Source: Fibrobacter sp. UWR4
GTDB taxonomy: Bacteria; Fibrobacterota; Fibrobacteria; Fibrobacterales; Fibrobacteraceae
Assembly (NCBI RefSeq): GCF_003149045.1
Contig: NZ_QGDU01000023.1
Span: 1-56,491, forward strand
Direction: 5' to 3'
DNA length: 56,491 nucleotides
Both the position numbers and the translations under genes were made by a program. Position 1 is the stretch's first letter; every line of letters begins with the position of its first letter. Below the pieces are notes generated by a model, which saw only the letters and a list, made by a program, of their open reading frames with translations, did no database searches and was not told the origin of the DNA. Below are positions 2,948 to 13,094 of this stretch, piece by piece.

Positions 2948-4117
2948 GTGAAAAACTTCTTTTTAAAATCATTGGTTGCAGCCTGTGCCTGCAGCTTCTT
3001 CTTCGGTTGTGGTTCAGACAAGTCTACCGCACCTAACGATAACCCCATCAGTTCTGCCTTAGATATTCCTGCCAGTTCTGCAGCGAACATCCCTCTGATT
3101 CCCCAAAGTTCCTCTTCATCACAGGCTTTCACTCCCGTCAGCTCTTCTTCTCTAATTTATATTCCCTTAAGTTCATCTTCTGAAATTTCTAATCTTCCAG
3201 AATCTTCTTCTGCAGAAGTTCAGACAACATCTTCAAGTTCCGAAACATTTAAGTCCATGTTCATTGGCGCCTGGGTAGGCGGTTCCGAAGAAACCCCTCA
3301 ACCAACAGCGGCCAACGTTGACGCTTTCGAAAGATTACAGGGGCGTCACCTGGATATTATTCACCATTTCGTGCTATGGCAATACAACGACTGGAACTGG
3401 ACAAGGCGTTATGCAGACATGGCAAAGAATCGTGGGTCCATCATGATGATTTCATGGATGCCCGACCCCTATACCGCGCAGGACATTTTAAACGGTCTAG
3501 CCAATGACTACATCGATGATTTTGCCAATGGCGTCAAGGATTTCGGTTCCGAAATTTGGCTTCGTCCCCTTCACGAATCCAACGGAGATTGGTACACTTG
3601 GGGCACCGGCAAGGATCCCGAGAACAACGCCGAAGACAAAGTGGCTGCAGCATACCGTCATATCGTGAACCGTTTCCGAGCCCTTAACGTCACTAACGTC
3701 AAATGGGTTTGGACTACCAACGCTAGCAATAGCGGATCCAAATCCACATTGAAGGGTTCTTATCCCGGCAACGATTACGTGGACTACACTTCCATCGACG
3801 GCTACAATTGGGGAACCGCGCAAAGCTGGTCTAGCTGGCAATCCTTCTCCCAGGTTTTTAAGCCCGCCTATAAAGCTATCGAAGGTTTTAACAAGCCCAT
3901 GTTCATCGCAGAATTTTCCTGCAGCGAACACGGCGGTAGCAAGGCGGAATGGTTCAAGAACATGTTCGAGGTGTTGCCCACAGAATTCCCGAAAATCAAG
4001 GGGCTCGTGATCTTTAGCCAGAGCAAGAGTCACGAAGCGGATTGGGGCATCGATACTTCCAACGAATCCCTGAACGCCTGGAAGGCCGGCATAGCAGCCT
4101 TCCCCGCAGCAAGGTAA
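2948..4117 (+). CDS. GH26 family beta-mannanase-like lipoprotein with Ser-rich linker (copy 2)
   Basis: A 389-residue paralogue of the preceding gene. It starts at a GTG preceded by TTGGAGG (2934-2940). The lipidated cysteine is residue 21. Residues 25-100 form a low-complexity linker with repeated SSSS blocks, typical of surface lipoproteins of this lineage and missing from copy 1. The GH26 domain covers residues 104-385 with acid/base E210 (LRPLHESNGDW) and nucleophile E322 (KPMFIAEFSC). The long linker suggests that this copy reaches further from the membrane than copy 1. Its stop lies two bases from the stop of the convergent kinase gene, with no terminator between. Confidence 0.85.
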   Translation: MKNFFLKSLVAACACSFFFGCGSDKSTAPNDNPISSALDIPASSAANIPLIPQSSSSSQAFTPVSSSSLIYIPLSSSSEISNLPESSSAEVQTTSSSSETFKSMFIGAWVGGSEETPQPTAANVDAFERLQGRHLDIIHHFVLWQYNDWNWTRRYADMAKNRGSIMMISWMPDPYTAQDILNGLANDYIDDFANGVKDFGSEIWLRPLHESNGDWYTWGTGKDPENNAEDKVAAAYRHIVNRFRALNVTNVKWVWTTNASNSGSKSTLKGSYPGNDYVDYTSIDGYNWGTAQSWSSWQSFSQVFKPAYKAIEGFNKPMFIAEFSCSEHGGSKAEWFKNMFEVLPTEFPKIKGLVIFSQSKSHEADWGIDTSNESLNAWKAGIAAFPAAR

Positions 4118-4118
4118 A

Positions 4119-7100
4119 CTAACTCAGCAAATCAGCTAATGTCTCCATCAGCTTATTGATGTCAATGGGCTTTGCCAGATGTTCGTTCATACCAGAAGCA
4201 ATAGCCTTTTGACGATCTTCTTCAAAGGCATTCGCGGTCATCGCCACAATGAGTACATTTGCCTTTGCAGGATCATTCATCTTACGAATCATCCTAGCGG
4301 CTTCATAACCATCCATCACAGGCATCTGGATATCCATCAGCACCAGCTTGTATGTATCCGCAGGAACATCCTGAATTTTCTGGACAGCATCCTGGCCGTC
4401 AACAGCCACATCCACAACGAATCCTGCTTCCGTCAAAATTGTAGAAGCAATTTCCTGGTTGAGCAAGTTGTCTTCCACAAGAAGGATGCGCGTTCCCTTG
4501 AAGTCAAAGTCAATAGGCTTAGAGGAGGCATTTCCAACTTCACCCTCGCCGACCTTGAACTGCAACGTAACAATGAATTCCGTACCACACCCAGCTTCCG
4601 AGATCACCTGAATATCGCCCCCCATCATGGTTACGATATTCTTTGTAATAGCCATGCCTAGGCCGGTGCCCTGAATTCCAGAAACTGTAGAAGTTTCTTC
4701 TCGAGCAAAAGCTTCAAAAATTCGTTCCTGGAACTTCGGACTAATACCGATACCATTATCCTTCACGCGGAATTCATAACGAGCATGACCAGCTAAGTCG
4801 CAAGGCTGTTCACAAACATTCAGGCTGATAGAACCACCTTCCTTCGTAAACTTGATTGCATTGCTCAGCAGGTTCAAAAGGATTTGATTCAAGCGGAGTT
4901 TATCCGTCACAATATTTTCGTTGTTCACAGAAACATGGAAGGCCAGGTCCTGATTCTTGTGACGAACGTTTGCCTGCACGATAGTCTTTACATCCTGCAG
5001 TAAATCCGGAAGATGAATTTCCTGTTCTTCCAATTTGACACGACCACTTTCAATACGTCGCATATCCAGCACGTCGTTAATCAGGGAAAGCAAGTGCTCA
5101 CTGGAAGTATTAATCTTGGATAAATAATCCTGCAGGCGATTCTTGTCATCAATATGGCTTGAAGCAAGGGCTGTAAAGCCAATGATGGCATTCATGGGTG
5201 TTCGAATATCATGGCTCATATTATTCAGGAAGAACGTCTTGGCATTATTAGCCTGTTCCGCCTGAACCAGGGCGTCGTGAAGTTTACGCTCGGCCATTTT
5301 TTGTTCATTAATTTCCTGAGAAATATAAATCACATGAGAAGGATTCCCCTTCTTATCGCGTCGGGCCACAAGAATCGTCACCCTACACCACCCAAGAACA
5401 TTGCCCTCATATTCCGCACTATAGGAATCGCGAGAACCAAGGGTATTCTTCCATTCAGAGATGGTATTGAATCGATGCAAGATAGGTTTGTACTTTTCAA
5501 GGACCATCTGGTCAGCCATAAGGAACAGAGCCTTCTGCGCATCCTTTTTTAGAGGGCTTATAACCTTATCGACAAAATCCAAAGTATGGATAGTTTCAAA
5601 GGAATTGTCGACCACATCCACAAGGAACACGCTATGATACAAATCGCTGATGGTCCGAATCACATCCAGCTGCATTTCAAGTCTTTCATTCTGGGCAAGT
5701 TCCCTCGCGGCCTGTTTCTTGGTGCGCCTAAGCCAGAAAATCAACAGCAAGAAGATGACACTCACGAAGGAGGCCGATATTGAAATAACCATTTCCAGAT
5801 AGTCAGTCAAATCATCCAGCAGGGATGGTTTATAAAGGGATGCCACATACTTGTAGGACAGATTCAGAGCAAAATCATCCCCCATCAAGGCAATACCGCG
5901 GTTCAGAAGTTTCAGCAATGGTTCATCACCGACCGCAACACCAAAGTACTTGTCATTGGGGATATTCAGAAGCTTTACGGACAAGCTGGAGAACTTTCGA
6001 TTTTTAAGGATGTAGGATGCGCGCTGATTTCCAATTACAACGGCACTGGCTTCACCATCAAGAATTGCATTTAGGCAATCTTCAACAGTAGCATAAAACT
6101 TGATTTCTGCGTCGGGGAAATGATCCCGGACCAAAAATTCCATCATCCTGCTGTTTCTATTGATCGCGAAAGTCTTAACAGTAGCGTCGTTAAAGCGGCC
6201 CTTAAAAACAAGACTTACATCAGAACGAACTACAGGAGCGGATTCTCGGATTCCGTTTTTTTCTGCCCAATACAAACTGCCGCCTACAGGGAAGCCAACG
6301 TCAACCTGTTTCTGGGCAATAGAGGAAACCAAGTTCTCGTAATCATCAAAGGCCGTGTAGTGAAGAATAATGTTCTTGGAAGAAATGTACCGATTCATTT
6401 CATAGAACACATCCGCCACCATCCCCGTAGGAATGTCACCCAAAATAACAACATCACTGGGGACGTAATGTTCTCGACGTTTCTGGTCAGAGAGCACATC
6501 ACTATAGGGTAGCAGCTTCTTCAGGTAACCAATTTTCAAAGTATCGTGGCTAGCAAGCCATGCTCTTTCCGGACCAGTCAAAGACTTACTGATGGCGCTA
6601 GGACGAATATACTTGTTGAAAAGCTTTGCTGTAACAATGGGGTCGTCTTCCATCAACTGCCCCAAGGCACGGTTTAATTCCCCCAGCAAATCCGGACGTT
6701 TCTTGGTAACGCACAGGAAGTAGAAGGAATTACTCATCTTGAAGAAAATTTCAAAATTCGGCCCAATTTTCAAGCCAAGATTTTCCACAACAGCTGCATT
6801 CACAGAATCACAAGCCAAGGCAGAATCACGAGCGGCAACATCCTTATAGACCTTCACTTCGGCTTCAATTTTATTTTCCGCAAGGAACCTACGTAAAGTC
6901 TCCTCCATAGCACCACGCAAAGTTCCGATCTTTTTTCCCTGCATGGACATAGGATTCGGGAAAAGGGACTGATCCGTCTTTTTCTTCATGAATTGAAAAA
7001 CTTCTCGACCCATAGGCACTTTAGAGAAGTACATCAACGGTTCACGATCCTTAGAGAATGCTAGACCCGCCATCAGGTCCACCTCACCTCTCAAGAATTT

Positions 7101-7331
7101 CTGGTAGATTTCATCTACAGAACCGAACACATATTCATAACGCCAGCCGGTATACTGAGCCACCCGCTGGTAGTATTCATACGCATAGCCATTAAGGGAC
7201 GTTTCCTGAGTTCCTTCCTGGAAATTTTCACTTTGGAAATATCCAACACGGACCGTCTTAGGACCACCTTCAGCACAAAAGGCGATTCCTGCAAAAATTG
7301 CCAAAAAGCACAAAAAAACAAATTTTCGCAT
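4119..7331 (-). CDS. Hybrid histidine kinase with two periplasmic solute-binding domains (BvgS/EvgS type)
   Basis: A 1070-residue membrane sensor. A signal peptide (residues 1-20) is followed by two SBP_bac_3-type domains, about 25-245 and 262-500. A membrane helix spans 512-534. A divergent PAS-like region follows at about 555-680, then HisKA with the phospho-accepting H707 (NNMSHDIRTPMN), HATPase with NAIKF, DNGIG and GTGLGMAI boxes at about 825-895, and a receiver domain with LVEDN and phosphoacceptor D1000 (LVLMDIQMPVMDGYE). No output domain is attached, so a separate regulator or phosphotransfer protein is needed; none is visible nearby. Convergence with the GH26 pair suggests sensing of nutrients or cell-wall products, but that link is inference. 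Confidence 0.85.
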   Translation of the reverse strand: MRKFVFLCFLAIFAGIAFCAEGGPKTVRVGYFQSENFQEGTQETSLNGYAYEYYQRVAQYTGWRYEYVFGSVDEIYQKFLRGEVDLMAGLAFSKDREPLMYFSKVPMGREVFQFMKKKTDQSLFPNPMSMQGKKIGTLRGAMEETLRRFLAENKIEAEVKVYKDVAARDSALACDSVNAAVVENLGLKIGPNFEIFFKMSNSFYFLCVTKKRPDLLGELNRALGQLMEDDPIVTAKLFNKYIRPSAISKSLTGPERAWLASHDTLKIGYLKKLLPYSDVLSDQKRREHYVPSDVVILGDIPTGMVADVFYEMNRYISSKNIILHYTAFDDYENLVSSIAQKQVDVGFPVGGSLYWAEKNGIRESAPVVRSDVSLVFKGRFNDATVKTFAINRNSRMMEFLVRDHFPDAEIKFYATVEDCLNAILDGEASAVVIGNQRASYILKNRKFSSLSVKLLNIPNDKYFGVAVGDEPLLKLLNRGIALMGDDFALNLSYKYVASLYKPSLLDDLTDYLEMVISISASFVSVIFLLLIFWLRRTKKQAARELAQNERLEMQLDVIRTISDLYHSVFLVDVVDNSFETIHTLDFVDKVISPLKKDAQKALFLMADQMVLEKYKPILHRFNTISEWKNTLGSRDSYSAEYEGNVLGWCRVTILVARRDKKGNPSHVIYISQEINEQKMAERKLHDALVQAEQANNAKTFFLNNMSHDIRTPMNAIIGFTALASSHIDDKNRLQDYLSKINTSSEHLLSLINDVLDMRRIESGRVKLEEQEIHLPDLLQDVKTIVQANVRHKNQDLAFHVSVNNENIVTDKLRLNQILLNLLSNAIKFTKEGGSISLNVCEQPCDLAGHARYEFRVKDNGIGISPKFQERIFEAFAREETSTVSGIQGTGLGMAITKNIVTMMGGDIQVISEAGCGTEFIVTLQFKVGEGEVGNASSKPIDFDFKGTRILLVEDNLLNQEIASTILTEAGFVVDVAVDGQDAVQKIQDVPADTYKLVLMDIQMPVMDGYEAARMIRKMNDPAKANVLIVAMTANAFEEDRQKAIASGMNEHLAKPIDINKLMETLADLLS

Positions 7332-7596
7332 GATACCAAACTCTCTATATATTCCCCAATCAAAATTAATTTTTTTCAGAAAAAAACAATTTCGTACAAG
7401 TTTTCAAACATACGTCCAAATTGGGCTAAAATTACACTAGCCACAGATTGTATCATTTGCAAGAGCGTCTGTTTCATATACGCAATTATTCTTTAAAAAC
7501 TAGCCGTTTTACACGATTTTTTGTAAAAATCCATAACTTTTGTATCATTCGTCAATTTATCTTATGAGAAAAGAAATTAAATTATTGGAGAACATC

Positions 7597-8670
7597 ATGA
7601 AGCTGCATTCTAAATTCATCATTAGCGCATCCGCAATCGCCTGTTCTGCGTTCCTTTTCGCAGGATGTTCCGACAGCACATCTGCAAACGACGTTATCGA
7701 AAATCAGCCCATGATTGAAGAAATCCCCACACCGGAACAGCCACAGGGCATCCTGGTAGAGGAACAGCCCGCGGATACAACGTCCTTGGCCACAAAGGAC
7801 TCCTTTGAGGAGCCGAACGAAGTCGAACCGCCCCTTGATGAAAAGTATTTATGCGAAAATGATGCCTACGCCAATACGATTGTCGACCCTGAAGGAAAAA
7901 CCTTTACGTATAATGACCGTACCGCCGACTATTCCTTCAAGGGAGACACCTTGATCATTCGCTGGCGAGACATGCGTCCGGCAATGGACTGCGGCCCCAA
8001 CTGCTACGGAACTGCCGACGGTATTATGCTTGTAGGTGGTATTGAAGGCAAGCTGGAGGGTGGTTCCTGGGAAATGATTCCCTATATCCAGGAAAATTCC
8101 TTTGGAGCTAGTGGAACCATCACTCATGTGAACAACATGAGAACCGCCACCTACACCTTTACCGAGATGTGCGAAAATGTCTATCACCTAGCCACCACGG
8201 AACAGGAATCATTCGACATGGAAAAATCAGATGACCTGATGAATTCCACCTTCATGGCAATCCTGTACAAAAACATCTATAGTGCAAAGAATAAGGATGA
8301 AATCCTCTATTACGACGGATACTTTCCTTCCTACGCAGACTATTTGCTCTACGACAACAAAAAGGATGTAGAGAACAATATTTCCAAGTATGACGTAGAG
8401 GTTCTTGAAAAGACGAATACTAGCGAAACATTCTCTATGTACGGGAAGACTTTTACTGTAACCGTAGATTTCGCAAACGCCTTCCCTCTAGGGGACAAGT
8501 TTAAAATCGGAAAGTCCATTGTGAACGAAAAAACATCTTTCACCATCAAGTCTGGCGAAGTTTCCTGTAGCTACAAATACAACTACAATCCCAAGGATAA
8601 CGATCCTGCCAGAAACGAAGCCAACGACACCTACGCCGATTGCTTTGAAAATCTTGTAAACTTTGATTGA
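7597..8670 (+). CDS. Secreted lipoprotein of unknown function
   Basis: A 357-residue lipoprotein. The start at ATG 7597 was preferred over 7540 because TTGGAG lies just upstream and it gives a clean signal peptide (MKLHSKFIISASAIACSAFL) with lipobox FAGC. Residues 28-85 are acidic and proline-rich, and the remainder is a mature domain with scattered cysteines (CGPNC, YLCEND, and a closing YADCFEN). I do not recognise a family. It is first in a four-gene cluster with the TIGR02147 gene eight bases downstream, so the two are probably co-transcribed and functionally linked. Confidence 0.6.
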   Translation: MKLHSKFIISASAIACSAFLFAGCSDSTSANDVIENQPMIEEIPTPEQPQGILVEEQPADTTSLATKDSFEEPNEVEPPLDEKYLCENDAYANTIVDPEGKTFTYNDRTADYSFKGDTLIIRWRDMRPAMDCGPNCYGTADGIMLVGGIEGKLEGGSWEMIPYIQENSFGASGTITHVNNMRTATYTFTEMCENVYHLATTEQESFDMEKSDDLMNSTFMAILYKNIYSAKNKDEILYYDGYFPSYADYLLYDNKKDVENNISKYDVEVLEKTNTSETFSMYGKTFTVTVDFANAFPLGDKFKIGKSIVNEKTSFTIKSGEVSCSYKYNYNPKDNDPARNEANDTYADCFENLVNFD

Positions 8671-8678
8671 GTCCAATA

Positions 8679-9494
8679 ATGAAGCCTGTTTTTGAATACC
8701 AAGACTACCGCTCCTTTATGATGGAGTACTACGAGGATCGAAAGAAAAAGTCAGCCTTTACCTGGCGCGACTTTTCCAAAGCCGCAGGTTTTGCATCCCC
8801 TTCGTATTTGAAGCTGGTCTGTGATGGCAAGAGTTCCTTGAGCCGTGTCGGTATTCCGAAAGTAGCTTCCGCCATGGGACTTTCTGGCGCAGAAAGCACA
8901 TTCTTCGAAGCTCTGGTCGAGTTCGGGAATGCCAAGGACGACAAGAAGAAAACTCTTTTCTTGAACAAGATGACCCGCATCGCAGCGGAGCAGCAAGTCC
9001 GTGTTCTTTACGCAGACACCTTCGCCTACTATGATTCCGCAGTCAATTCCATTGTCCGTGAATTGGCTCCTTTGATGCCAGGCGCCCTTCCCAACGACAT
9101 GGCGAAAAAAATCATGCACACATTTTCCGCCCAGCACGTACGAGAATCGCTAGTATTCCTGGTAAAAGCGGGACTTCTACGCGAAACGACTACAAACACA
9201 TACGAACAGACGGACAAAGCCATCACAGGATCCAAGGAGGCCATTCCTCTCGCCATCCGTTCCATGAATAGGCAGATGATTGATCTGGCCAGAGAATCTT
9301 TAGATAAAGTAGACACTAGTGAGAGAAATATTTCTGGCGTTACCATGGGCGTAAATGCAGAGACTTATGCAGAAATTGCCCAGGAAATTGAAGCATGTCG
9401 CAAGAAAATCATTGCAATTGCGAACAAATGTCAAGACATTGACCGTGTTTATCGATTAAATTTACAACTGTTCCCTTTGACAGAAACGGTTTAG
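8679..9494 (+). CDS. TIGR02147 family protein (DUF4423-like)
   Basis: A 271-residue cytosolic protein that begins MKPVFEYQDYRSFMMEYYED, followed by FTWRDFSKAAGFASPSYLKL and DGKSSLSRVGIPK. This is the typical N-terminal half of the TIGR02147 family, a paralogous group best known from Fibrobacter and related to DUF4423 proteins. The N-terminal half reads like a helix-turn-helix unit, so a regulatory role is plausible but unproven. The ATG at 8679 is chosen over an in-frame TTG at 8667 because family members start MKP. It is sandwiched between lipoprotein genes, and its stop codon overlaps the ribosome-binding site of the next gene. Confidence 0.8.
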   Translation: MKPVFEYQDYRSFMMEYYEDRKKKSAFTWRDFSKAAGFASPSYLKLVCDGKSSLSRVGIPKVASAMGLSGAESTFFEALVEFGNAKDDKKKTLFLNKMTRIAAEQQVRVLYADTFAYYDSAVNSIVRELAPLMPGALPNDMAKKIMHTFSAQHVRESLVFLVKAGLLRETTTNTYEQTDKAITGSKEAIPLAIRSMNRQMIDLARESLDKVDTSERNISGVTMGVNAETYAEIAQEIEACRKKIIAIANKCQDIDRVYRLNLQLFPLTETV

Positions 9495-9503
9495 GAGATA
9501 AGC

Positions 9504-10277
9504 ATGAACGCACGAAAGCAATCAACAGCAACAAAGCTAGTGAAAGCAGTTTCATTCGGGCTATGTCTCATATCCGTTTTTAGCGCTTGTTCCACCAATG
9601 TTGCAGGCACTGATGAACAAGGAAATACCATTGCCGCGGATTCCTCCACGGACGCGCCCACACCAGCATCTTCCACCAGCGTCAATGTCACTGATGTTCC
9701 GTCTTCTAACAGCAGTTCAAGTACAATTGTTGAATCTTCCAGCAGCATCCAAATAACGATTCCTGTTAATCCTGTCGATCCAGAAAAGAGTGAGCCAGGC
9801 TCCAATCCGAGTTCAGGTTCAACAGGATCTATAGGTAACTCCGAAAACCTGGAGCATATTCTCAACGCAGCAGCGAATAACGTCATTCTCACTACCGGAG
9901 TTGACCTTCCCGATTTACCGCCTAGTTCATCCGATTCGGGAGGCACCCCCATTCAATCAATGATTCAAGTCAGCGTTGAAAACGGATCTCTTACATATTC
10001 AACAAAAGAAAATAGAGCATTCGTCGCCTGCGACGAAAACAACTTCGATACCCATTCCTACCTCGTCCTGTTAAATAGCGATGTTGCAATCAAGGAATTC
10101 GTATCAAATTCTGCAGAGGACCACGAACTTTTCAAGACGCTTTGCGAATCCCAGAACGGAACGTACTCGTCCAAAGAAGAAAATACTTCGACCTGCAGGA
10201 TATCCGCAATGGATATCTACAAAGATCCAGACTGGATGACCTTCAGCAATAAGGTCATCAGCCATTGTAGAACATAA
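9504..10277 (+). CDS. Lipoprotein with Ser-rich linker, unknown function
   Basis: A 257-residue lipoprotein preceded by TAGGAGAT, which overlaps the upstream stop. The lipobox is VFSAC. A Ser/Thr/Pro-rich linker runs from about residue 35 to 115, and the C-terminal 120 residues contain cysteines in the pattern LCESQNGTYSSKEENTSTC. The next, broken gene holds a similar C-x-E-x-GTYS-x-C segment, so the two are probably diverged paralogues. Co-transcription with the TIGR02147 gene is likely. No enzymatic motif is seen. Confidence 0.6.
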   Translation: MNARKQSTATKLVKAVSFGLCLISVFSACSTNVAGTDEQGNTIAADSSTDAPTPASSTSVNVTDVPSSNSSSSTIVESSSSIQITIPVNPVDPEKSEPGSNPSSGSTGSIGNSENLEHILNAAANNVILTTGVDLPDLPPSSSDSGGTPIQSMIQVSVENGSLTYSTKENRAFVACDENNFDTHSYLVLLNSDVAIKEFVSNSAEDHELFKTLCESQNGTYSSKEENTSTCRISAMDIYKDPDWMTFSNKVISHCRT

Positions 10278-10288
10278 AAGGAGGACCA

Positions 10289-11223
10289 ATCACGAGATCC
10301 ACACTCAAGACCATTATGACCGGGGCGGTCGGAATGGCGTTCTTCGCCTGTGGCGATAACGAAAGCAGCACTGCTCCAGAAAACGGCAACATGCCCGAAA
10401 GCAACATCGTACCGGAATCTTCCGCAGCGCAAGAAGTTTTATCAAGTTCCGATGCATTCCATAAAGAATCCTTGCAACGATGGATCAAGGAGAACTACGT
10501 CACCAATATGGTGACAATCGATTGTCCCACCACAGGACCACAAGAAGCTCATTCTTGTGCCGAAGAGCGGCTGCGAATCGGAGCCAACACCCTAACTCAC
10601 GCATGGATTGGGCACAGTAATTACTTCGCATGCGAAACCGATTGCGAGGCCGAGCAGGGAACATACTCTGTTGACAGCGATGGCGTATCCTTCTGCATTG
10701 TGGAGGTTCCTCCAATTCCATCACCAGTTTATGCAAGGATGAACCCATCGAGGGACTCACCCACTCCAATCGCATCAAAACGGGAGAATGCAAGGTCGAC
10801 GGCTTCTCAGTTCATTCAGCACTAGCAAAGGATGGTGCGGTAGAATCGTCCAAGGCAAAGATAATTGACGAAGAAAACGGCTACGAAATCATGATTCCAG
10901 ACATCAGCGATTATTGCGAAATTGACGTAGGCCTCGTTAGAAAATTAGTGGGAGATATACTATACATCCAATACGACATGGATTGCAAGGAACACGAAGC
11001 CCATTTCAATTCATTAGGAAACGACGGCTGTGATGAAAATGCCTGCATCACAATAGCACCCATTCGTAAGCAATTTGATGAAACCTGCTCTCCAGCCATC
11101 GCATCAAAATGCATGTGCATCAGCGACCACTATTTCCCTGTTGGTTTAGATTATTTACGTGGAGCAAAGTTCGTCGTTTTCAACGATGTCACCTACCCCA
11201 TTGAAAATCCTATAAGCCCGTAA
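10289..11223 (+). pseudogene. Frameshifted lipoprotein gene, probable paralogue of the preceding one
   Basis: AAGGAGG (10278-10284) sits four bases before ATC (10289-10291), where an ATG would be expected. From there the frame reads a signal peptide with lipobox FFAC. The frame stays open to 10825, but the sensible sequence (GTYSVDSDGVSFCIVEVP) shifts at about 10700-10735 into another frame, starting near TSLCKDEPIEGLTHSN and running to TAA at 11221-11223 with paired cysteines. A one-base loss, or two-base gain, would explain it. An intact first part could start at ATG 10316 but would lose half the signal peptide. The gene is either decayed, affected by sequencing error, or uses unusual decoding. 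Confidence 0.65.
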
Positions 11224-11327: not shown

Positions 11328-12737
11328 CTACATGTTGCTGAAGATCTGGAAGCCACCGTAAGATTCCTGACCATGTTCGGAGAGGTCGAGACCGCGGAGT
11401 TCTTCCTTTTCGCTAACGCGGAGGCCCATAGTCTTCTTGATCACGATGAAGATCAGGCAAGCAGAGAGGAAGCAGGGGATTGCGTAGGCAACGACACCGA
11501 GAAGCTGGGTGGAGAAGTTGAAGCGGCCGGTGTAATCGAAGATACCAACTGCAAGGGTACCCCAGATACCGTTGACCAGGTGAACGGAGAGAGCACCAAC
11601 CGGGTCGTCCAAGCGGAGCTTTTCGAAGAAGTACACAGCCAGGACTACGATCACACCACCGATTGCACCAATGATCCAGGCACTGAGCGGGGAAACAGTA
11701 TCAGCAGGAGCGGTGATTGCAACCAGACCAGCCAAGCATCCGTTGAGAGCCATGGTGGCATCGGGCTTCTTTGCGATAATCCAGGAAGTTGCAGTTGCGG
11801 TAATGATGCCAGCCACAGCAGCCAAGTTAGTAGTCACAAGAATCAGAGAGGTATCGAAGGGGTTGCCAGAGAGAGCGGAACCACCGTTGAATCCCCACCA
11901 GCCGAACCACAGGATAAACACACCGATAGTTGCCAGCGGAACGTTGTGAGCGGGAATTGCATGAGCCTTGCCGTTCACATACTTGCCGATACGGGGTCCG
12001 AGAATGATTACGCCAGCGAGAGCGCCCCAGCCACCCACGGAGTGAACCAGTTCAGAACCAGCCAGGTCGTGGAAGCCTTCTGCACCGAATGCAGCGAAGT
12101 TGGAGAGCCAACCACCACCCCAAACCCAGGAACCAACTACCGGGTAGACGAATGCTACGTAGAAGAAGGTGAACACCAGGAAGGAGGAAAGCTTGATACG
12201 TTCAGCAACGGCACCGGAAACGATGGTTGCAGCGGTAGCGGCAAACATAGCCTGGAACAGCCAGTCGGTGAACAGGGAGAAGTGACCGTTGTAGGCGGCA
12301 GTGAAGTTTGCGGGGTTAAGCCAATCGCCAATGCCGAAGCCTGCAAAGCCAAGCCAACCGTTAAATTCACCCGGGTACATCAGGCCGAAGCCCAGGAGTG
12401 CGTACACGGAAATACCGATTGCAGGTACAGCCACGTTCTTAAAGCAGATGTTGGATGCGCTCTTTGCGCGGCAAAGACCGGATTCAACGCAAGCAAAGCC
12501 AAGGCCCATGATGAACACCAGCATTGCAGAAATCATGATCCAGATATTTTCGGTCATGAAGATTGCTTCGCCCACAGTGGGAGCGGCTTCTGCAGCAGGA
12601 GCAGCGGCAGCTTCGACGGCGGCAGCAACAGGAGCAGCAGCTTCGGCAACAGTTTCAACAACGGCTGCAGCTGCGGAAGAAACGGTATCAGCCACGGCAG
12701 CGGCGGTATCGACGATAGTAGAAAGAGTATCAGCCAT
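11328..12737 (-). CDS. amtB: Ammonium transporter, Amt family
   Basis: A 469-residue inner-membrane ammonium channel with 11 predicted helices. Visible signatures are FACVESGLCRAK, the pore twin histidines in SELVHSVGG and LSVHLVNGIWG, and WFGWWGFNGGSA. It is preceded by AAGGAGGT and lies 15 bases downstream of glnK, the usual pairing in which PII blocks the channel. The odd feature is the first 55 residues: an Ala/Val/Glu low-complexity stretch before the first true helix (TENIWIMISAML), far longer than usual, with no clean signal-peptide cleavage site. It may be a leader that is removed or an extension outside the membrane. Expression probably depends on the sigma-54 promoter at 13141-13158. 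Confidence 0.92.
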   Translation of the reverse strand: MADTLSTIVDTAAAVADTVSSAAAAVVETVAEAAAPVAAAVEAAAAPAAEAAPTVGEAIFMTENIWIMISAMLVFIMGLGFACVESGLCRAKSASNICFKNVAVPAIGISVYALLGFGLMYPGEFNGWLGFAGFGIGDWLNPANFTAAYNGHFSLFTDWLFQAMFAATAATIVSGAVAERIKLSSFLVFTFFYVAFVYPVVGSWVWGGGWLSNFAAFGAEGFHDLAGSELVHSVGGWGALAGVIILGPRIGKYVNGKAHAIPAHNVPLATIGVFILWFGWWGFNGGSALSGNPFDTSLILVTTNLAAVAGIITATATSWIIAKKPDATMALNGCLAGLVAITAPADTVSPLSAWIIGAIGGVIVVLAVYFFEKLRLDDPVGALSVHLVNGIWGTLAVGIFDYTGRFNFSTQLLGVVAYAIPCFLSACLIFIVIKKTMGLRVSEKEELRGLDLSEHGQESYGGFQIFSNM

Positions 12738-12752
12738 TTTTATACCTCCTTA

Positions 12753-13094
12753 TTAGCCAATAGCTTCCGGGCCAGTTTCACCGGTACGGATACGGATACA
12801 TTGTTCAAGGTTCGTAACGAAAATCTTGCCGTCACCGATGTTTCCAGAGCGGGCGCCGGCGATAATTGCATCGATGCAAGGCTGAACGAACTCATCGTTC
12901 ACGGCAATGCGGATGCAAATCTTCTTGAGCAGGTTCACTTCAGTTTCGACACCACGATAAACCTGAGTGTGACCCTTCTGCTGGCCGCAACCCAGAACGT
13001 TGGTGACAGACATCTTGAAGATTTCGGCTTCGTAAAGCGACTGCTTTACGCTATTAAGCCTTTCGGGTTGAATGTAAGCTGTAACGAGCTTCAT
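12753..13094 (-). CDS. glnK: Nitrogen regulatory protein PII lacking the uridylylation tyrosine
   Basis: A 113-residue PII trimer subunit that binds ATP/ADP and 2-oxoglutarate and controls AmtB. Conserved parts are the start [14 protein letters not shown] before the T-loop, GDGKIFV (about 87-93) and IRIRTGE near the end. In the T-loop, YRGVETEV carries threonine at position 51 where proteobacterial GlnB/GlnK have the uridylylated tyrosine; Tyr46 is kept. Control by GlnD-type uridylylation at residue 51 is therefore not possible, and regulation is probably by ligand binding alone. It is first gene of the glnK-amtB operon, 37-47 bases downstream of a sigma-54 promoter. Confidence 0.93.

Follow-up and report, generated by a model that had tools for sequence, protein, structure and literature searches.

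TIGR02147 genes of Fibrobacter and Bdellovibrionota are paired with downstream exported proteins and probably form autoregulated operons with them

The DNA analysed here, called the window below, is a stretch of 56,491 nucleotides (nt) from contig NZ_QGDU01000023.1 of Fibrobacter sp. UWR4. Our subject is a cluster on its forward strand in which a gene of the TIGR02147 family stands among lipoprotein genes (Table 1). The encoded protein is a full-length member of the paralogous family TIGR02147 ('Fsuc_second'), which corresponds to Pfam PF14394 (DUF4423), and the family records carry no function. Three consecutive genes are separated by 8 nt (8670/8679) and 9 nt (9494/9504), and the gene coordinates (7597-8670, 8679-9494 and 9504-10277) agree with the order lipoprotein, TIGR02147, lipoprotein and the eight- to nine-base spacing read from the sequence by the original prediction. 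The range given there, 7597-11223, takes in a third lipoprotein gene as well. The first two lipoproteins have clear lipoboxes (FAGC-SDSTSAND and FSAC-STNVAGT), but the third (10292-11223) is a decayed pseudogene: compared with intact relatives it has ACG in place of the start codon, has lost an internal stretch, and is put out of frame where more sequence has been deleted. Intact versions in the related genomes G099 and G090 encode 400 and 424 amino acids (aa). Sequencing error as the sole cause of the broken gene was rejected because the lesions are several and separate. The cysteine-bounded GTYS motif noticed earlier is real and lies within a four-cysteine ectodomain that the lipoprotein at 9504 has in common with the product of the gene after it. 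This ectodomain is the confidently modelled part of the former protein (block predicted local distance difference test score, pLDDT, about 79-98), for which no Pfam domain was matched.

The first and second lipoproteins differ in their relation to the regulator. The upstream one is found, among the orthologous loci read, only in the window and in G094, where it lies as an extra gene between the operator described below and the regulator; it is counted inside the operon because of this position. It is a local insertion, not a genus-conserved gene, and was ruled out as a core part of the unit, since most orthologous loci lack it. The downstream lipoprotein was found +8 to +12 nt after the regulator in all 14 orthologous loci read, and the overlap of its predicted Shine-Dalgarno sequence with the regulator stop codon reads as a signature of translational coupling. 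We call this gene product the partner.

Table 1. Coordinates of the regulator-partner locus and its candidate operator in the window
Feature	Position	Strand	Details
Operator box 1, TGTATCAT	7449..7456	+	footprint; exactly 21 nt to box 2 in genus loci
Operator box 2, TGTTTCAT	7470..7477	+	footprint
Operator box 3, TGTATCAT	7541..7548	+	footprint; 71 nt after box 2
Upstream lipoprotein	7597..8670	+	357 aa; lipobox FAGC-SDSTSAND
TIGR02147 / DUF4423 regulator	8679..9494	+	271 aa; 309 bits to TIGR02147
Predicted HTH core of regulator	8763..8873	+	residues 29-65; AlphaFold2 model and PDB profile search
Predicted Shine-Dalgarno AGGAG of partner gene	9493..9497	+	sequence; overlaps regulator stop codon
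Partner lipoprotein	9504..10277	+	257 aa; predicted lipid Cys-29; lipobox FSAC-STNVAGT
Post-Cys motif VAGTDEQGN	9600..9626	+	residues 33-41 of partner; near-invariant in orthologues
Four-Cys ectodomain of partner	9951..10274	+	C176, C214, C231, C255; GTYS and YxDPxW motifs
Decayed second downstream lipoprotein	10292..11223	+	ACG at start, deletions, frameshift near 10715-10730

The pairing is not confined to this locus. All TIGR02147 genes of the window genome (3.6 Mb in 93 contigs) were taken with their flanks and compared with 17 stretches of 20 kb from the same genome; genes were called by a simple dicodon model with our own scripts, and lipoboxes by pattern or by eye. The genome has 26 matches, 25 of them full length, so the family is indeed paralogous in Fibrobacter, as had been claimed. 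The next gene on the same strand starts -17 to +11 nt from the regulator stop in 22 of the 25, with -1, -4, -8 and -14 nt as the dominant offsets, and all 22 such genes encode lipoproteins (20 called by pattern, 2 by eye). Among same-strand control neighbours at most 20 nt apart only 11/100 do so (Fisher p about 2e-16). Same-strand lipoproteins among the upstream neighbours (4/24) are at about the background level. Thus the expectation that lipoproteins flank TIGR02147 genes more often than by chance holds downstream but fails upstream, and the conserved unit is the TIGR02147 gene with the gene immediately downstream.

The upstream region 7332-7596, which the original prediction had proposed for a DNA-binding assay, contains an operator-like triple repeat, found by phylogenetic footprinting of the aligned upstream regions of orthologues. 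The exact 21 + 71 nt spacing of the boxes is kept in 20 of 28 genus loci, nearly all the others being off by one base or without one exact box, whereas the start codon follows the last box at anything from 30 to 169 nt. In the 3.6-Mb genome the pattern of boxes 1 and 2 is found a single time, at its own operon. Specific repeated sites are present upstream of the regulator's own operon, as in an autoregulated one. In most relatives box 3 is directly followed by TTGACT and TATATT hexamers at promoter spacing. Paralogues have boxes of their own. The clade of C24_4254 has the palindrome TATAATACA-n3-TGTATTATA with a half-site 70-72 nt downstream, and an independent test of this clade gave direct repeats 70-72 nt apart in 23/29 loci; the palindrome usually includes the upstream copy. 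Another paralogue of the window genome has TATGATACG-gag-CGTATCATA and a half-site 71 nt on, the boxes in a paralogue's promoter read TTGTAGTAT, and a third clade has repeats of GTGTTCCCA at other spacings. A universal 71-nt spacing is ruled out by this last clade. The generic offset spectrum across all loci of the phylum gave no single spacing because the clades differ, and a repeated-8-mer trinucleotide test was weakly positive (10/96 vs 5/101); therefore the operator claim rests on footprints within clades.

The regulator matches NCBIfam TIGR02147 over residues 1-269 with 309.2 bits (2.5e-92; cut-off 50) and Pfam DUF4423 with 90.9 bits (cut-off 30). An AlphaFold2 model, built on the alignment of the 25 paralogues of this genome (pLDDT 86), predicts a helix-turn-helix (HTH)-like N-terminus of five helices at residues 10-24, 29-36, 43-48, 58-65 and 71-84 (block pLDDT about 90-97), a winged-helix-like region with two strands (residues 112-177) and two long C-terminal helices. 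The segment SPSYLKLV (residues 41-48) is the likely recognition helix. The Pfam scan gave no match of the regulator to an HTH family, the family scan none to tetratricopeptide repeat (TPR) families, and no gene of the cluster has a Pfam or NCBIfam match to sigma-70 region 2/4 or to an anti-sigma domain. The model and the sequence strongly suggest that the TIGR02147 protein is a DNA-binding regulator. In addition, the box TGTATCAT stands upstream of 26/49 members with a [YF]LKLV helix and of 1/145 other members; collapsed at 65% identity, the association is 5/19 vs 1/74 clusters, and control promoters have the box in 0/101 cases. Dedicated autoregulators whose specificities diverge would leave such a pattern in the sequences, which does not in itself prove binding.

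We infer that the TIGR02147 protein itself binds the boxes. One could argue that another regulator acts on them and that the TIGR02147 protein works post-transcriptionally on its partner, perhaps helping in the translation or export of this one protein. Strict pairing in cis and the overlap of the genes would be in keeping with a dedicated co-translational partner, and DNA binding is a predicted property. However, each paralogue clade has different boxes and the window genome has the window's box pair at a single place, so that a locus-specific DNA-binding protein is needed, and the only regulator always present is the gene with the predicted HTH. We regard the post-transcriptional role as improbable.

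The partners themselves have little in common. Their lengths range from about 70 to over 700 aa, and the domains of the 22 partners in the window genome are CarboxypepD_reg (12), FISUMP (TIGR02145; 5), LamG (3), pectate lyase (1) and a carbohydrate-binding module (1). The lipoprotein at 9504-10277 and all 22 of these partners have a lipobox with a predicted lipidated cysteine, assigned by pattern or by eye. What the partners have in common is a motif just after the signal peptide, [AG]G-x-[TE][ED]-x-G-N, with examples such as CSTDVAGGVSEETN, CGTETGNP and GGVDVGNG. Its loose form is present in 61/80 Fibrobacterota partners and in 5/57 control lipoproteins, and the motif is kept where the partner is a plain secreted protein rather than a lipoprotein. 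Orthologues of the window partner have only 22-35% identity to the window copy, yet [AST]GTDEQxN is almost fixed in them; the next lipoprotein of the operon has the four-cysteine ectodomain but not the motif. Therefore, the motif tracks being the partner of the regulator, not being a lipoprotein. We discarded a role as a general sorting signal of lipoproteins, because other lipoproteins seldom have the motif and partners that are not lipoproteins do have it.

The signal peptide sequences themselves are not conserved. This bears on a pheromone-like reading, according to which a peptide from the signal sequence or the mature N-terminus of the lipoprotein would act as the regulator's ligand, in the way known from RRNPP systems. 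A predicted HTH regulator does adjoin a gene with a conserved N-terminal peptide here, but the C-terminal half of the regulator is predicted to consist of a winged helix and long helices and not of a TPR array, in line with the lack of a TPR match. Together with the variable signal peptides, this makes the pheromone-like reading very improbable.

The family and its pairing extend well beyond the window genome. TIGR02147 proteins are present in 157/168 Fibrobacterota genomes, with up to 88 candidates in another genome of the phylum, and in other Fibrobacterota every locus whose downstream DNA is long enough (58/58) has a lipoprotein gene there, in most cases at -14 to +15 nt (57 called with a relaxed pattern, one by eye). 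A scan of named genomes with a profile from a four-member alignment found loci in Bdellovibrionales, in Halobacteriovoraceae and in metagenome-assembled genomes (MAGs) labelled Desulfobacterales and Deltaproteobacteria, and the family is present in 169/192 Bdellovibrionota genomes. Among the 29 best-scoring Bdellovibrionota loci an exported protein follows in 28 and the motif is found by pattern in 26, with one further motif partner (L303, GTATGNP) recognised by eye; lipoproteins make up only about half of the proteins at these loci. No TIGR02147 gene was found on the plasmid sequences scanned. The system is thus not lineage-specific, as had been thought possible, being found in Fibrobacterota, Bdellovibrionota and scattered MAGs labelled Desulfobacterales or Deltaproteobacteria. 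The proposal of a regulator-surface protein system stands in its essence; what does not stand is the lipoprotein as necessary partner, the constants being export and the N-terminal G-x-E-x-G-N.

Two kinds of partner are seen in Bdellovibrionota (L288-L316), lipoproteins with CGT[ED]TGNP and secreted proteins with GGVDVGNG-like starts, and both have the same motif near the mature N-terminus. As a separate observation, an ectodomain start of the type G-[VY]-AQKGPF is common to L166, L269 and L274 and to C10:71765, C27:154 and C19:27704 of the window genome. Its sharing between partners of a Desulfobacterales-labelled MAG and of Fibrobacter suggests, at the level of sequence, old or transferred regulator-partner units.

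Chance, or hitch-hiking in an operon without functional linkage, has to be considered for the pairing because Fibrobacter is rich in lipoproteins (13% of the control genes of the window genome). However, the enrichment within this one genome has a p of about 2e-16, and the pairing recurs in two phyla together with a shared motif. This cross-phylum recurrence refutes chance as the sole explanation, and we give this reading next to no credence.

What the motif is for can be read in two ways. The regulator may sense something else altogether, so that the exported protein would be an output only and the motif would serve its localisation or processing in the envelope. Such simple autoregulation would be enough for the pairing and the operators, and the presence of carbohydrate-binding and FISUMP domains among the partners fits it. 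It leaves unexplained why the motif is largely confined to partners of the regulator and persists in two phyla and with two kinds of signal peptide. We consider it a plausible account, if somewhat short of an even chance. Alternatively, in an extension of the autoregulatory reading, the cytoplasmic regulator would bind the unexported precursor via G-x-E-x-G-N, and its activity would report the export of the partner, much as in export sensing of the FlgM or ExsE type. The motif adjoins the signal peptide, and nothing else is conserved among partners that are otherwise unrelated; it is retained in lipoproteins and plain secreted proteins alike, and is absent from the operon's second lipoprotein despite the shared ectodomain; the gene overlap suggests that both products are made on one polysome. 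Against this, the mature protein has the motif outside the cytoplasm, where an envelope receptor could equally bind it. The position of the motif, its restriction to regulator partners and its survival across the change between lipoprotein and secreted protein make feedback gated by export worth considering, although we hold it to be unlikely. The same doubt applies to its full form, a cross-phylum module in which a cytoplasmic HTH regulator would read the export status of its partner through the G-x-E-x-G-N tag, in tens of copies with private operators.

Taken together, the module is probably an autoregulated operon of a regulator and an exported partner. The first conserved gene of the operon would encode a two-headed DNA-binding regulator (HTH and winged helix), which would bind the boxes of its own promoter. 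Activation is the most likely effect, since in most relatives the proximal box immediately precedes the -35 hexamer, a placement typical of activators. The regulator would thereby set the level of the translationally coupled exported partner, here the lipoprotein 9504-10277. The box sequence of each paralogue is its own, which implies tens of insulated regulator-partner switches per genome, and these switches would serve different surface proteins: carbohydrate-binding, FISUMP, pectate lyase and others.

Several observations speak against this explanation. Three paralogues of the window genome (C1:151676, C3:29547 and C32:14334) are without a downstream partner; C1:151676 has a motif-bearing lipoprotein 207 nt upstream on the opposite strand, and C3:29547 a lipoprotein upstream. 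Weakly scoring Bdellovibrionota members, seen in one genome, are often without a motif partner. In the window's own subclade no clear -35/-10 follows box 3, which makes the activating sign, deduced from the position of the box, less obvious there. The helix-box association comprises few independent events because many of the promoter loci are orthologues, and 14/19 LKLV clusters are without the exact box, so any helix-box code is incomplete. Finally, profile matches to PDB sequences are weak (E 0.05-1), pointing to XRE-type HTHs for the N-terminus (0.05-0.8) and to MarR/FadR winged helices for the middle; therefore the DNA-binding fold rests on the secondary structure of the AlphaFold2 model and on the sequence. 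In the divergent arrangement at C1:151676 (L041), a long palindrome, TATATGATTCATTGTGAATCATATA, lies between the TIGR02147 gene and the motif-bearing lipoprotein.

The surroundings of the cluster are partly conserved. Two paralogous lipoproteins encoded in tandem (1831-2784 and 2948-4117) have domains of glycoside hydrolase family 26; their order is kept in G091-G094, where the TIGR02147 pair follows immediately. A hybrid histidine kinase with an SBP_bac_3 sensor and a receiver domain (4119-7331) is divergent from the operon; a similar gene is in the same place in G099, and several relatives lack it. At 244-932 the window has a DUF3990 gene separated by 2 nt from a gene with a weak match to DUF3791. 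The two may form a small two-gene system, and a similar-looking pair is near another TIGR02147 gene (L039, 5035-5809). On the other side the cluster is flanked at 11328-13094 by a pair resembling an ammonium transporter and a PII-like protein, a synteny anchor in several relatives.

The unit is carried many times per genome by Fibrobacter and by predatory Bdellovibrio-like bacteria, and the proposed function offers a testable role for dozens of genes that had no explanation. Were every copy a private switch for a single surface protein, these bacteria would control their cell surface one protein at a time. In the literature searched we found no mention of TIGR02147 and no description of the pairing, the motif or the operator; the family curator's note, which was not covered, may already record the pairing. 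Four CarboxypepD_reg lipoproteins of F. succinogenes S85 (FSU_2817, FSU_1088, FSU_2134 and FSU_0627) are in the envelope proteome and are reduced on cellulose (PMC6851124). They share their domain with 12/22 partners of the window genome; the window partner is without a Pfam domain. According to the S85 genome paper, which left the regulation of cellulases open, few recognisable transcription regulators lie close to cellulase genes (PMC3079729), and the DUF4423 protein Bd3700 is among the Bdellovibrio proteins upregulated during growth in prey (PMC12546842). Regulators, DNA sites and partners can now be listed and tested directly, and the N-terminal motif common to the partners gives a concrete starting point for work on a possible new kind of coupling between regulator and export.

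Among known systems, the pairs FecI-FecR, FlgM-FliA and ExsE-ExsC likewise consist of a co-transcribed cytoplasmic regulator and an envelope or exported protein; FecI-FecR also occurs in many paralogous copies per genome, as the TIGR02147 module does, and FlgM- or ExsE-type regulators sense export. Compared with these sigma/anti-sigma and export-sensing pairs, the module has no sigma or anti-sigma domain and no transmembrane signalling protein. RRNPP regulators (PlcR, Rgg, PrgX, ComR), whose systems include lipoprotein-derived pheromones, resemble it in that the gene of an HTH regulator, here a predicted one, has as its neighbour a gene whose exported product contains a short conserved segment. 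In the module, however, the regulator is without a predicted TPR domain, the partner is a large exported protein and the motif is in the mature protein. The XRE-type HTH autoregulators are similar in that boxes precede the operon of the regulator itself, and in the HTH, which is a predicted one in the TIGR02147 protein; compared with them, the TIGR02147 module has an extra, predicted winged-helix half, a multi-box geometry of 21/71 nt, tens of copies with their own boxes and a near-obligate exported partner.

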